NCBI GenBank assembly: GCA_016235775.1
Contig: JACRIU010000008.1
Span: forward strand, 1 to 64,000
DNA length: 64,000 bases
Reading direction: 5' to 3'
Origin: Hydrogenophilales bacterium
Lineage (GTDB): Bacteria; Pseudomonadota; Gammaproteobacteria; Burkholderiales; Thiobacteraceae
Every line of letters begins with the position of its first letter. Position 1 is the stretch's first letter. Below the pieces are notes generated by a model, which did not search any database, was not told where the DNA came from, and worked only from the letters and a program-made list of their open reading frames with translations. This document shows positions 23,918 through 63,322 of the stretch, piece after piece. The position numbers were made by a program, and so were the translations under genes.

Positions 23918-24043
23918 CCACAGAGAGCACAGAGGGCACAGAGAAAATACAGTGGCTTTATCCTCATGCCGCTTTCACCTAAAGGGTGGACTAAGACTAT
24001 GAGCCTGTCGAGCTTTTCTCTGTGCCCTCTGTGACCTCTGTGG
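23918..24043. repeat. CACAGAG inverted element, copy A
   Basis: Arm 23918-23943 (3x CACAGAG, 9-nt period), 74-nt interior, arm 24018-24043 (3x CTCTGTG). Confidence 0.95.
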
Positions 24044-40874: not shown

Positions 40875-40942
40875 CCACGGAGTACACGGAGGGCACAGAG
40901 TTTTTGGGTATTAAAACTCCGCGTTTTCCGTGTACTCCATGG
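40875..40942. repeat. CACGGAG/CACAGAG inverted element, short-loop copy F
   Basis: Arm 40875-40900 (CACGGAG,CACGGAG,CACAGAG; 9-nt period), 16-nt interior, diverged arm 40917-40942. Confidence 0.85.
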
Positions 40943-41978: not shown

Positions 41979-42104
41979 CCACAGAGCACACAGAGCACAC
42001 AGAGAAAAACATAAGGGGTTCTGGACTTGGCGCACTCCCCCACGGTGCTATCGAGCGCAACGCGCTAAGAACCGGCGTCTCTGTGTGCTCTGTGATCTCT
42101 GTGG
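41979..42104. repeat. CACAGAG inverted element, copy B
   Basis: Arm 41979-42004, 74-nt interior, arm 42079-42104. Confidence 0.95.
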
Positions 42105-43065: not shown

Positions 43066-43191
43066 CCACAGAGATCACAGAGTACACAGAGGAAAGCACA
43101 GATGCATCACGATTCTTGGCCTACCCCTTGGGTGATTGATACATCACAGTGTAACCACGGGTTTTCTCTGTGGCCTCTGTGATCTCTGTGG
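43066..43191. repeat. CACAGAG inverted element, copy C
   Basis: Arm 43066-43091, 74-nt interior, arm 43166-43191. Confidence 0.95.
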
Positions 43192-46755: not shown

Positions 46756-46794
46756 GGGCTGGCATTATAGCTGCGCTAGGAAAACCTGTTTTAA

Positions 46795-46940
46795 CCACGA
46801 ATGAACACGAATAGACACGAATGTTAAAAACATACTACCCAAGTCATGCTGCTATTGGCCGGTACGCCAGGAAAGTGGAAGCACTCGCGTTACAGAATGC
46901 CCTTTGCTTTTTATTCGTGTCCATTCGTGTTCATTCGTGG
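46795..46940. repeat. CACGAAT inverted element, copy H
   Basis: Arm 46795-46822 (3x CACGAAT, 10-nt period), 90-nt interior, arm 46913-46940 (3x ATTCGTG). Confidence 0.92.
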
Positions 46941-46966
46941 TTCCCAAGCTTTTCTCCAAATCGCTA

Positions 46967-51307: not shown

Positions 51308-51366
51308 TTTCTCTGTGCGCCCTGTGGCCTCTGTACCCCGGAGGGCGCGCTGCGCGCTCGCAAAAG
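51308..51366. repeat. Right-arm-only remnant of a CACAGAG element (copy G)
   Basis: TTTTCTCTGTGCGCCCTGTGGCCTCTGTACCCCGGAGGGCGCGCTGCGCGCTCGCAAAA. Confidence 0.75.
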
Positions 51367-52933: not shown

Positions 52934-53059
52934 CCACAGAGGTCACAGAGATCACAGAGAAATGCGTGGAATGCGCATGGCTTCTGGCTCGTCCTTTTGA
53001 TAAGAGTGGTCTACCGGGAAAACCACGGTTTTACTCTGTGGCCTCTGTGTTCTCTGTAC
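52934..53059. repeat. CACAGAG inverted element, copy D
   Basis: Arm 52934-52959, 74-nt interior, arm 53034-53059, then the variant tail ACCCCGGCGGGTAGGCTGCGCGCTGGCAAA. Confidence 0.94.
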
Positions 53060-53111
53060 CCCGGCGGGTAGGCTGCGCGCTGGCAAATTGTTTTTTCTAG
53101 GATAGCGCCCC

Positions 53112-56219: not shown

Positions 56220-57295
56220 GCCTGTTGTTGAAGGCGCTCAAGCATGCGGATCGTGGCTCGGCGTTGTCGCTGGAGCCGATGGCCGCGCGCGCATCTGATG
56301 CGCACACGCCGCCCCCCACCGCTCAAGCGGCAGCGGAGTTGATGTTCGAAAAACATGCTGCGTCTGAAAAGCGGCGTCTGCTGATTTTGCTTGGTTCCCT
56401 GGGTGCAGTAGTAGTGGTCATGGGCGTGTATTTTTATGTCGCGATCTTTATGCCCTGGGTGTTTTTGCCAAAACCTCCCTCGCCGCCAGCGCAGCCGGTG
56501 ATCACGACCCAAGCACAACGCCCGATTGAAACGCTGCCGCCGCTCACACAAACTATTCCCGCGCCGCCACCCGCTATGAAGCCGCTTGAGCCGGCGCGTT
56601 CCACCACGCAAGCACCCAGTGCAGACACACCAAAGCCGCGCGCCAATAGCGCCCTGCGCAAGGAGGGGGCCAGCGTGGCGCCGGCAACGCCGGACACCGG
56701 CATCAAAGTGGTTGGCGGTAGCGCGCAATCCAGCGGCGGGATTTCGAACGCCTATCAGTTGCTGCAGGACGGACGCTTGGAGGATGCACGGCGCGCGTAT
56801 GAAAAACTGCGCGCCTTGGAGCCGCGCAATCCGGATGTACTGCTTGGCCTGGCGCTGATCGCACAGCGTCAGGGTCGCGCTGACGACGCGGTGCAGCACT
56901 ATCTCAAGGCGCTGGAAGCCGACCCCAAAAACACTTTCGCGCAAGCCAGTCTGACCGGCATGGTGGCGCGCGCTGATCCGCAAGCGGCGGAAACAAAGTT
57001 CAAATCGCTCATCGCGCAACAGCCCGCCGCCTATTTGTATTTCGGTTTGGGCAATGTGTATGCGGCGCAAGGCCGCTGGAATGAAGCGCAAAATGCGTAT
57101 TTCGACGCGCAGCGGCTGGAGCCGGATTCACCCGACTATGCTTTCAATCTCGCAGTGAGCCTGGAGCACATCAATCAGCCGCGCGCCGCGCTCGATTATT
57201 ATCAGCGCGCGCTCAAACTCATACAAACCAGGAGCGCGTCGTTTGATGTGGCGCAGGTGAAGTCACGCATCCAGCAGTTGGGTAGTGCGAAATAA
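56216..57295 (+). CDS. TPR protein, MshN-like
   Basis: One TM; TPR LEDARRAYEKLRALEPRNPDVLLGLALIAQRQGRADDAVQHYLKALEADPKN; 4-nt overlap with the secretin. Confidence 0.85.
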   Translation: MSLLLKALKHADRGSALSLEPMAARASDAHTPPPTAQAAAELMFEKHAASEKRRLLILLGSLGAVVVVMGVYFYVAIFMPWVFLPKPPSPPAQPVITTQAQRPIETLPPLTQTIPAPPPAMKPLEPARSTTQAPSADTPKPRANSALRKEGASVAPATPDTGIKVVGGSAQSSGGISNAYQLLQDGRLEDARRAYEKLRALEPRNPDVLLGLALIAQRQGRADDAVQHYLKALEADPKNTFAQASLTGMVARADPQAAETKFKSLIAQQPAAYLYFGLGNVYAAQGRWNEAQNAYFDAQRLEPDSPDYAFNLAVSLEHINQPRAALDYYQRALKLIQTRSASFDVAQVKSRIQQLGSAK

Positions 57296-57350
57296 TATTC
57301 TGTTGCATCGGTGTCCACACAGGTGCGCGAGCATCTGTCGAGTAAGTGTC

Positions 57351-57440
57351 TCCCCCTTTGAAAAAGGGGGAACAAGGGGGATTTGTAAGTTGCCTCAACG
57401 TGTTAAATCCCCCCTAACCCCCCTTTTGCAAAGGGGGGAA
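57351..57440. repeat. CCCCCTTT/AAAGGGGG inverted intergenic element
   Basis: TCCCCCTTTGAAAAAGGGGGAACAAGGGGGATTT...AAATCCCCCCTAACCCCCCTTTTGCAAAGGGGGGAA. Confidence 0.9.
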
Positions 57441-57487
57441 GAAATATCGTTTTGGTATTTATCCGTGGTTTACAAGGCCTGTCCTTA

Positions 57488-60471: not shown

Positions 60472-62013
60472 ATGTCCACCAAAATTCTCGCCAGCCTGTC
60501 CGCGCGCAAAGCCTGCTTTGCCTTGTTTAAGCATGGCGGTCTGACCGGTTTCACCGCTTACGACAACGACGACCGCGCCTTGCGCGCCTTCGGCGAGTTG
60601 ATCGCGCGCCACCCGGATGCGCCGGTGTATCTGATGGTGGACACGGTGGAGGAAGAATACCGCACCGAGCTCATGCCGCATGTATGGGGCGGCGCGCGGC
60701 GCGAGATGTCCAAGCGCAAGCTCGCGCAACTGTTTCGCACCGTGCCTTATCGCGCGGCCTGGCTGCAGGGCCGCGACAGCGCCGCGGGCAAGCGGCGCGA
60801 TGATGTGTATTTGTTTCTCGCGCTGAATTCCGGCGACTTGCTGCGGCCCTATCTCGAATACATTCATTCACGCCGCGCGCCACTGGCCGGTATTTTCCTT
60901 TTGCCGCAAGTGACGCAGGCGCTGGCGTCGCGCCTCAAGTGCGACACCGCGGGCGTGCTGCTGGTTTCGCGCCAGCAGGGCGGCCTGCGCCAAAGTTTCT
61001 TTTTGCAGGGCCGCCTGCGCATCAGCCGCTTGACCCCGCTCGACCCGCTGGGCGAGCCGGCCACGGCCGAATCCTATGCGGCGGAAGTTGAAAAGAGCCG
61101 GCTATTTCTCTACAACAGCCGGCTGCTGCCGCGTGAAGCGCGCTTGACCGTGCTCATCCTCGACATCGACGACGGCTTGGCGCAAGTGCCGGGTTTGTTG
61201 AGTCAAGACGCGTCCTTTCACTGCCAGCGCCTCGGGTTTGAACAATTGCGTGCGGCATTGAGCTTAGGGCCGGCCGATCTGCCGCGCGACCCGGAAGCGC
61301 TGCATCTATTATTGCTGGGTAAATATCCGCCGCAAGCAAGCCTGGCCGAGCCGCGTCTCACCGGCGATTTCACCTCGCACCAGTTGCGCACCGGTTTGTA
61401 TGCCATCAGTCTGGCCATCGCCGTCACGGCGCTCGCTTGGAGCGGGTACAACTTGTATCGCGGCTATGCCAATCAATCCGCGACGCAAAGCGCCATCGCC
61501 GATACCGCGCGCTACCGCACTCAATATGCGGAAGCAGCCAAGCAGTTTCCGGCGGCGCCGGTGGCCGCCGAACATTTGCGCCAAGCGGTAGAAGTCGCGG
61601 ATCAGATCAAGAAATTTGCGCGCACGCCCGAACCTTTCATGCAGTTGCTGGGCCTTGTGTTGAGCGAGTTCCCGCAAATCGAACTCAGCCGCCTCGACTG
61701 GCGCTATGCCTCGACCACCGCCGCGCCGCAATCATCCGCCGGCGGCGTCAGCCCGAGCGCGTGGCAACAGCAGGGCGAGATCGAGGCGGAGATACGCCCC
61801 TTCAACGGCGATTACCGCGCCGCCTTGCTGTTGATCGAGCGCTTCGCGGCACGCTTGCGCGCGCAGCCCAATGTGGCGGGCGTCAGTATCGTCAAGCTGC
61901 CGCTCAATCTGGATCCGGCCAGCACGCTCAGCGGCAGCACGCAAGATAGCTCGGACGCCAAGCCGGGCGCGGCGCAATTCAAGCTCGGCATCGTGATCAG
62001 GCGCGAGTCATGA
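60472..62013 (+). CDS. MshI/PilMN-like pilus biogenesis protein
   Basis: Position between MshG- and MshJ-like genes; single TM at GLYAISLAIAVTALAWSGYNLY. Confidence 0.75.
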   Translation: MSTKILASLSARKACFALFKHGGLTGFTAYDNDDRALRAFGELIARHPDAPVYLMVDTVEEEYRTELMPHVWGGARREMSKRKLAQLFRTVPYRAAWLQGRDSAAGKRRDDVYLFLALNSGDLLRPYLEYIHSRRAPLAGIFLLPQVTQALASRLKCDTAGVLLVSRQQGGLRQSFFLQGRLRISRLTPLDPLGEPATAESYAAEVEKSRLFLYNSRLLPREARLTVLILDIDDGLAQVPGLLSQDASFHCQRLGFEQLRAALSLGPADLPRDPEALHLLLLGKYPPQASLAEPRLTGDFTSHQLRTGLYAISLAIAVTALAWSGYNLYRGYANQSATQSAIADTARYRTQYAEAAKQFPAAPVAAEHLRQAVEVADQIKKFARTPEPFMQLLGLVLSEFPQIELSRLDWRYASTTAAPQSSAGGVSPSAWQQQGEIEAEIRPFNGDYRAALLLIERFAARLRAQPNVAGVSIVKLPLNLDPASTLSGSTQDSSDAKPGAAQFKLGIVIRRES

Positions 62014-62627
62014 AGCTCAAAGAATTCAACTGGCGTATCCTGCGCACACCCTTGTTGGTGCTGTTGGGCAGCCTGGCCGCCTCTTCCGCCTGGGTTTATT
62101 TCTCCCACCAATGGACCAACAGCACACGGCAAACACTCGAACGCGAACGCGTAGTGCTCAACGGTATCCGTCAAAAATCCACCCAAGCGGATCAGGAAAA
62201 ACTGCTCATCCAACGCTATCGCGACGCCTATGAGGATTTGCAAAAAAGCGGCGCGGTTGGGCCGGAGCAGCGCGTCAATTGGCTCGATGCCCTGCGCAGC
62301 GCAAGCCAAACCGTGCGCAGCCTGGGGGTGGATTATCAGCTCAGCCAGCAAACGGCTTCGCCCATCAAGCTCGATACCGGCGCGTATAAATTGCAGCAAT
62401 CGACTATGAAGCTGCGCATCAAATTGCTGCACGAGGGGGATTTGCCGAGCTTTTTAAGCGCCTTGGATGCGGAGCGGCCTGGACTCTATTTACTCCAAAG
62501 CTGTAGTTTGACGCGCAGTTCGGGCGGCGCTTTCAGCGTGCGCTATGAGCCAAAATTGGCCGCGGAATGCGAGTTGCTCTGGCTGTCCCTGATCGAAGCC
62601 GGTGCTGCGGAGGCGACGAAAAAATGA
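62010..62627 (+). CDS. MshJ/PilO-like protein
   Basis: TM near the N-terminus and coiled coil; 4-nt overlaps on both sides. Confidence 0.75.
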   Translation: MKLKEFNWRILRTPLLVLLGSLAASSAWVYFSHQWTNSTRQTLERERVVLNGIRQKSTQADQEKLLIQRYRDAYEDLQKSGAVGPEQRVNWLDALRSASQTVRSLGVDYQLSQQTASPIKLDTGAYKLQQSTMKLRIKLLHEGDLPSFLSALDAERPGLYLLQSCSLTRSSGGAFSVRYEPKLAAECELLWLSLIEAGAAEATKK

Positions 62628-63322
62628 AAATCAAAAAAACCATTTGCCACAGAGAGCACAGAGGTCACAGAGAAAACCCGCGGGCAATCTCTCCCTTTGC
62701 AAAAGGGAGGCTAGGAGGGATTTTTAGAAGAAGCAAAATGTGCTATGCATTGACAATTTCAATACAAAACCATGCGTGCACTGTGATTTTCTCTGTGATC
62801 TCTGTGTCCTCTGCGGCAAGAATTTTTGTTCCTAGAAAGCGGCACCTAGCATTGCTGTTTATTTGCGCATTCCCGCTCTTAGCCCAAGCCGAAACGCTCG
62901 GCCGCTTGTTCCATACCCCGGAACAGCGCGCCCTGCTCGACCTCGCGCGCAAATCCACCCCCTTGAATGCGAGCGGCGAACCGGATGCGGCCAGCGGGCA
63001 AGGCCTGTCGGTTAGCGGCATCGTCACCCGCAGCGACGGCAAACGCAGCACTTGGGTTAACGGCCGCTTGGAACACGATGCCGCCATCACCGGAAAACAA
63101 GATCGCACCCAAGTGTGGGTCAAGCTCCCCGGTGGCGAAGTCAAACTGAAAGTCGGCCAAAGCCTCGATCCGGCCACCGGCCAAGTGGCCGAGGGTTATC
63201 GCCGCGCGCCGCCGCCCGAGCCTGCCGCCGCCAAACCCGCACCCCCCAAAGCCCCCACCAAAGCGCCTGTTCCGGCCACCCGCGATGACAACGCCGAGCC
63301 AGATCAACCCGCCACGCAGTAG
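62624..63322 (+). CDS. MshK/PilP-like periplasmic protein with repeat-derived N-terminus
   Basis: C-terminal IVTRSDGKRSTWVNGRLEHD...VKLKVGQSLDPATGQV; ATG at 62624 overlaps the upstream TGA. Confidence 0.75.
   Translation: MKIKKTICHREHRGHRENPRAISPFAKGRLGGIFRRSKMCYALTISIQNHACTVIFSVISVSSAARIFVPRKRHLALLFICAFPLLAQAETLGRLFHTPEQRALLDLARKSTPLNASGEPDAASGQGLSVSGIVTRSDGKRSTWVNGRLEHDAAITGKQDRTQVWVKLPGGEVKLKVGQSLDPATGQVAEGYRRAPPPEPAAAKPAPPKAPTKAPVPATRDDNAEPDQPATQ
62647..62816. repeat. CACAGAG inverted element, copy E, with nested AGGGAGG-type half repeat
   Basis: Arm 62647-62672, 118-nt interior (including CTCCCTTTGCAAAAGGGAGGCTAGGAGGGATTTTT), arm 62791-62816. Confidence 0.94.

Follow-up and report, generated by a model that had tools for sequence, protein, structure and literature searches.

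The nesting of one repeat within another is already known from other bacteria. The BOX, RUP and SPRITE repeats of pneumococci are short, intergenic and palindromic, occur in clusters and are probably mobilised in trans; they are found inserted into one another, and some of them provide open reading frames (PMC3049150). Rickettsia palindromic elements (RPE) are palindromes of ∼150 bp that are inserted in frame in protein-coding genes (PMC10969869), and the Correia elements of Neisseria have 26-bp inverted repeats around an interior of up to 156 bp (PMC3049150). At the locus described here, an element of one palindromic family (F1) carries an arm of a second family (F2) at the start of a gene. 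A literature search with the F1 arm and the F2 blocks found no paper describing either family: the F2-block matches were unrelated oligonucleotides only and the F1-arm match was unrelated by its title. The genome (G000; 3.0 Mb in 140 contigs) has Burkholderiales/Betaproteobacteria metagenome-assembled genomes as its closest named relatives, and the window, i.e. the whole stretch of 64,000 nt that was analysed, is contig C50. The features are listed below, where G003, G005 and G007 are congeners, copy E is the F1 element under study and R1 is a subfamily of F1 interiors.

62010-62627, + strand: upstream gene in a PilO-like position of a pilus / type II secretion-like operon; an open frame with orthologues in congeners
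62624-63322, + strand: secreted-protein frame downstream; from the original ATG it runs through the whole of copy E without a stop
62629-62836: insertion, with approximate limits taken from the empty site between ATGAA and GCG in G005 and G007
62647-62816: copy E
62647-62672, + strand: F1 left arm of copy E, CCACAGAGAGCACAGAGGTCACAGAG, three exact CACAGAG iterons; the G003 orthologue has two
62673-62790: interior of copy E, 118 nt
62682-62690, + strand: possible F2 loop remnant, GGGCAATCT, of which an 8-mer recurs in one F2 unit (L034)
62691-62723, + strand: solo F2 arm of the GGGAGG type, 33 nt, CTCCCTTTGCAAAAGGGAGGCTAGGAGGGATTT; orthologous arm in G003
62761-62790, - strand: interior segment resembling the inverted start of the R1 interior (P ∼0.014, marginal)
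62791-62816, - strand: F1 right arm of copy E, CTCTGTGATCTCTGTGTCCTCTGCGG, three iterons with one mismatch; missing in G003
57351-57440: reference F2 unit, two inverted arms with their ATTT ends toward the loop; at the same place in G003 and G007

The F1 arm consists of three CACAGAG 7-mers at a 9-nt period, inverted around an interior, and its pattern has 220 matches genome-wide, against none for a control pattern. An earlier note on this DNA had set the 118-nt interior of copy E against 74 nt in the other copies, and this is borne out: the four other full copies in the window (starting at 23918, 41979, 43066 and 52934) all have interiors of exactly 74 nt. The fixed length that it proposed for the family stands only in part. 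The copy statistics come from about a quarter of the genome, supplemented by pattern and model searches of the whole of it; among the 65 copies examined, the interior is 72-76 nt long in 35, 45 nt or less in 20, 46-71 nt in six and more than 76 nt in four. Most of the 72-76 nt interiors belong to a real homologous subfamily, R1 (consensus AAAAGCACGGCAGACTCATGGTTCTTGGTTCACCCTTTGGGTGAG...; 28-29 copies aligned over 75 positions). This length is thus inherited by descent in R1 and is not a rule for F1 as a whole. A sequence-only model of R1, run with a heuristic first stage, found 39 copies in G000 and a single copy in each of G005 and G007, with no match in G001, G002, G003, G004 or G006. The R1 interior was also considered as a structured RNA and rejected: there is no consensus fold and covariation is no greater than in shuffles. 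A central CACCC-TTT-GGGTG hairpin with compensatory changes, read by hand in R1, likewise failed the covariation test against shuffles.

Arms and interiors of R1 are conserved very differently, with identities to the consensus of 98.9% for the 7-mers, 63% for the 2-nt linkers and 69% for the interior. Pairwise identity between R1 interiors has a median of 56% and a maximum of 78%, while G000 differs from its closest sisters at 19-26% of fourfold sites and has F1 about ten times more commonly than they do. All 36 R1 interior matches found without requiring an arm (E < 0.05) have at least one nearly perfect arm, in sequence stretches that had been chosen around arms; the loci from the genome-wide R1 model search likewise have one or more nearly perfect arms. 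The 7-mers could be maintained or homogenised in an element whose interior changes more quickly than the host genome, and this would imply error-prone interior copying or iteron-specific conversion, but we regard it as rather improbable. Plainer explanations of the contrast are that several old, diverged source copies exist, that F1 has been lost in the sisters, or that the copies were selected by their arms, which is partly controlled for by the above searches.

Several further arrangements of F1 and similar repeats were observed. In at least five copies (51311-51364, 53034-53087, L011, L083 and L086) the last iteron of the F1 right arm continues into CTCTGTACCCCGGAGGGTAGGCTGCGCGC, a third repeat that is joined to the arm at the same point each time. 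One F1 copy (L025, G000:C15:41174), preceded by a truncated F2-like piece, lies between apparent groES and groEL genes (recognised by eye), and a locus near a contig end (L004, G000:C1:48625-48694) has eight CACAGAGGT iterons, a tandem iteron expansion. A separate palindromic repeat at 46793-46942 has three ACACGAAT-type iterons at a 10-nt period and a 90-nt interior; its junction is a remnant or an empty site in G003 and G005.

The claim that copy E holds a half-unit motif of the second family is upheld, since the motif agrees with each of the two arms of the F2 unit at 57351-57440. The motif quoted in the note lies at 62691-62725, of which 62691-62723 make up the arm that the family shares. 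A pattern for the F2 arm has 32 matches in the genome and a second pattern, fitted to the arm of copy E, has 22, whereas the same patterns read backwards have none; the presence of an F2 arm in copy E is thus not due to chance, and this arm does not belong to the usual F1 interior. The GGGAGG-type units of F2 are inverted pairs of ∼34-nt arms around a loop of 26-33 nt, from which a half-unit comes to ∼49 nt. Of 28 sampled arms of this type, 21 are paired in this way; the other seven include L269, which is paired in the opposite orientation, L100, which proves to be paired on inspection, and three that are cut or masked. Among ∼25 decidable cases, only copy E and L277 have a truly solo arm. As pairs are usually intact and solo arms exceptional, the F2 arm in copy E is most likely to be the remnant of a full inverted-pair unit that has lost one arm. 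As a separate observation, the ATTT-inward F2 units (57290-57480, L033, L099 and L100) are enclosed by longer elements bounded by GGTATCTACACA...TGTGTAGATACC, apparently the true terminal repeats of this type.

The earlier note explained the length of copy E by a nested insertion of about 44 nt, the removal of which would restore a 74-nt interior. The R1 model does not detect copy E. Cuts of 36, 40, 44, 48 and 52 nt were scanned at every position and none restores R1, so a clean 44-nt excision was rejected: cuts covering the whole F2 arm give at most 3 bits, compared with 27-82 bits for true members, and the best-fitting cuts (52 nt, 62716-62768) do not match the position of the F2 arm. Nor does the proposed check on the genome-wide length of F2 half-units favour 44 nt, given the ∼49 nt above. 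A search with nhmmer of R1 against copy E matched 25 nt at the right end, inverted, with 2.2 bits, a score that 1.4% of shuffles equal. In a global alignment with one free insertion, copy E scored above all 60 shuffles, with the insertion placed away from the F2 arm. The 8-mer GGCAATCT lies directly before the arm in copy E and at the same place in the one F2 loop that shares it (P ∼0.015), so that the F2-derived DNA amounts to 33 nt with certainty and to ∼41-49 nt counting this possible loop sequence. The latter figure leaves 69-77 nt of interior, a remainder that brackets 74; the sum 118 = 74 + 44 is therefore possible but unproven.

A clean and recent insertion of a 44-nt F2 half-unit into a standard 74-nt F1 copy would account for the F2 arm, for the arithmetic of the interior, for an F2-derived part of up to 49 nt and for the marginal likeness of the right end to R1. 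We nevertheless find it quite unlikely, as no 44-nt cut gives an R1-like interior, F2 half-units are longer than this and almost never solo, and the insertion is shared with G003 and so is old. The 44-nt excess is more probably F2 sequence together with ordinary small indels than a clean unit-length insertion, and the coincidence of length is not evidence of recent transposition.

The age of the nesting comes from the same junction in six congeners (G001, G003, G004, G005, G006 and G007). In G005 and G007, the upstream proteins of which are 91-92% identical to that of G000, it is empty and reads ...GCGACGAAAAAATGAAGCGC... or closely similar: the upstream stop overlaps the downstream start, and the orthologues begin at the ATG of this ATGA overlap. 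The junctions of G004, G006 and G001 are also empty, with the overlap intact. G003 (88% in the same comparison) carries the insertion at this junction: an F1 left arm of two iterons (AAAACCCACGGGCAATTC) together with the same F2 arm, which is split in its hairpin loop by a 53-nt block; no F1 right arm is found there. The core of the 53-nt block occurs at two to three sites each in G000, G003 and G007 and at one in G005. In the adjoining gene, in which the alleles of G000 and G003 share 88% identity (12% nucleotide divergence), informative sites favour G000 with G003 over the other two groupings by 18:4:4, so that one insertion on the local G000 + G003 branch suffices; as some neighbouring genes favour other groupings, the region looks like a recombination mosaic. 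With the junction filled in G003 and empty in G005 and G007, both the F1 insertion and the gain of F2 are older than the divergence between the alleles of G000 and G003. Recent mobility of F2, which the earlier note took the nesting to support, is thus refuted at this site, where the left arm and the F2 arm are common to G003 and missing from G005 and G007. Relatives with a 74-nt interior here, which it suggested looking for, were not found: the six congeners show an empty junction or the partial element of G003, and no known copy among them shows copy E before the arrival of F2.

At many other junctions, such repeats have been gained or replaced in individual lineages. The junction at 41979-42104 has an F1 copy in G000, an F2 inverted pair in G003 (L207) and is empty in G005. 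At 40875-40938 there is a CACGGAG-type element in G000 and G003, a CGCGAATTAACGCTAATTAACGCGAAT-type element in G007 and an empty site in G005. The short intergenic gap at 43066-43191 holds a CACAGAG triple-iteron element in G000; in G005 (L210) and G007 (L212) the triple iterons are CACGGGG and the interiors are unrelated.

The missing right arm of G003 admits another history, in which the left F1 arm and the F2 arm are an old relic and the right F1 end of G000 was supplied by a separate, later F1 insertion or by ectopic recombination, with 118 nt unrelated to 74 nt. The restriction of R1 likeness to the right end of copy E and the expansion of R1 in G000 (39 copies, against 0-1 elsewhere) agree with such a chimera. 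It needs two events and the loss of a second left arm, however, whereas a single-step deletion of the right half in G003 accounts for the difference, and we consider it unlikely. The right arm of G003 would then have been lost rather than originally missing. Since the right end of copy E is only weakly R1-like and is missing from G003, a standard F1 copy need not have inserted here in a single step.

We judge it probable that copy E is an old F1 insertion at the ATGA junction that later gained a piece of F2, which survives as one arm. An F1 triple-iteron palindrome would have inserted at this junction of the pilus / type II secretion-like operon and a piece of an F2 unit would then have been acquired within it, with one arm now left. 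Copy E is thus a real and old nested repeat relic.

The TGA of the upstream gene overlaps the ATG at 62624 (this gene has no Pfam match, so its PilO-like label reflects operon position only), and copy E is an in-frame repeat insertion at this overlapping gene start. Read from this ATG, the G000 frame is open through copy E and gains 210 nt (70 codons, between the ATG and the AAG codon of the empty site of G005 and G007) before a signal-peptide-like KRHLALLFICAFPLLAQAE. As the insertion is in frame, the downstream gene of G000 may be read through the element or may start within it. In G003, as read from the sequence, the F2 arm contains a TAG that closes the original frame, and the signal peptide is immediately preceded by an ATG located after the arm. 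Folded as RNA, copy E gives a single long hairpin (-82 kcal/mol, z -6) in an operon transcript region, as might be expected if the F1/F2 composite had been kept by selection as a hairpin that tunes the downstream gene. Such stability is unremarkable, since any palindrome of this length folds likewise; Rfam has no match above the gathering score in the window, G003 lacks half of the composite and the sister species lack all of it, which makes a selected regulatory element highly improbable.

The closest comparisons place F1 and F2 among small non-coding repeats of known kinds. F2 resembles the GTAG-tagged REPs (PMC3733652) in its GC-rich hairpin arms, inverted dimers and the frequent TAG beside the stem, but in place of a conserved GTAG tetranucleotide it has a variable 4-5-mer (AACAA, TTAG, GTAG, CTAG, CGAG and others). 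No F1 or F2 arm lies in the 3.3-kb loci around the three PF01797 (Y1) genes of the genome. A RAYT-linked (IS200/IS605-type) REP was therefore rejected for F2, given its variable tag and Y1 genes that are not flanked by F1 or F2. The check for a partner transposase covered these three genes and found none. With MITEs and the Correia elements, F1 and F2 share size, inverted ends, intergenic placement and the lack of transposase coding capacity. The F1 arms are inverted and near perfect, and the F2 units are inverted pairs; the elements are small (∼130 nt) and multicopy, as the F1 arm matches show, and F1 interiors of 10-142 nt are too short to encode a transposase. Mobility is indicated by empty sites in relatives: G005 lacks the repeats at copy E, 41979 and 40875, and G007 lacks the one at copy E. 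The differences from MITEs and Correia elements are that F1 arms are iterated 7-mers and that no partner transposase or target-site duplication was found; no clear duplication is seen at copy E or at the other junctions compared, where the flanks have diverged. F1 and F2 are thus probably MITE-like: palindromic, non-coding and dispersed into intergenic gaps, presumably by transposases acting in trans, with nesting and partial loss taking place later. Copy E is like the RPE in being an in-frame insertion of a palindromic repeat, but it is a single case and lies at the start of a gene beside the ATGA overlap, not within a protein. The likeness to BOX, RUP and SPRITE is in short intergenic palindromic repeats with nesting, some of which supply open reading frames; the sequences are unrelated, and the modular design of BOX differs from the inverted arms of three 7-mers in F1. 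To these systems copy E adds one dated repeat-in-repeat nesting with empty sites in sister species.
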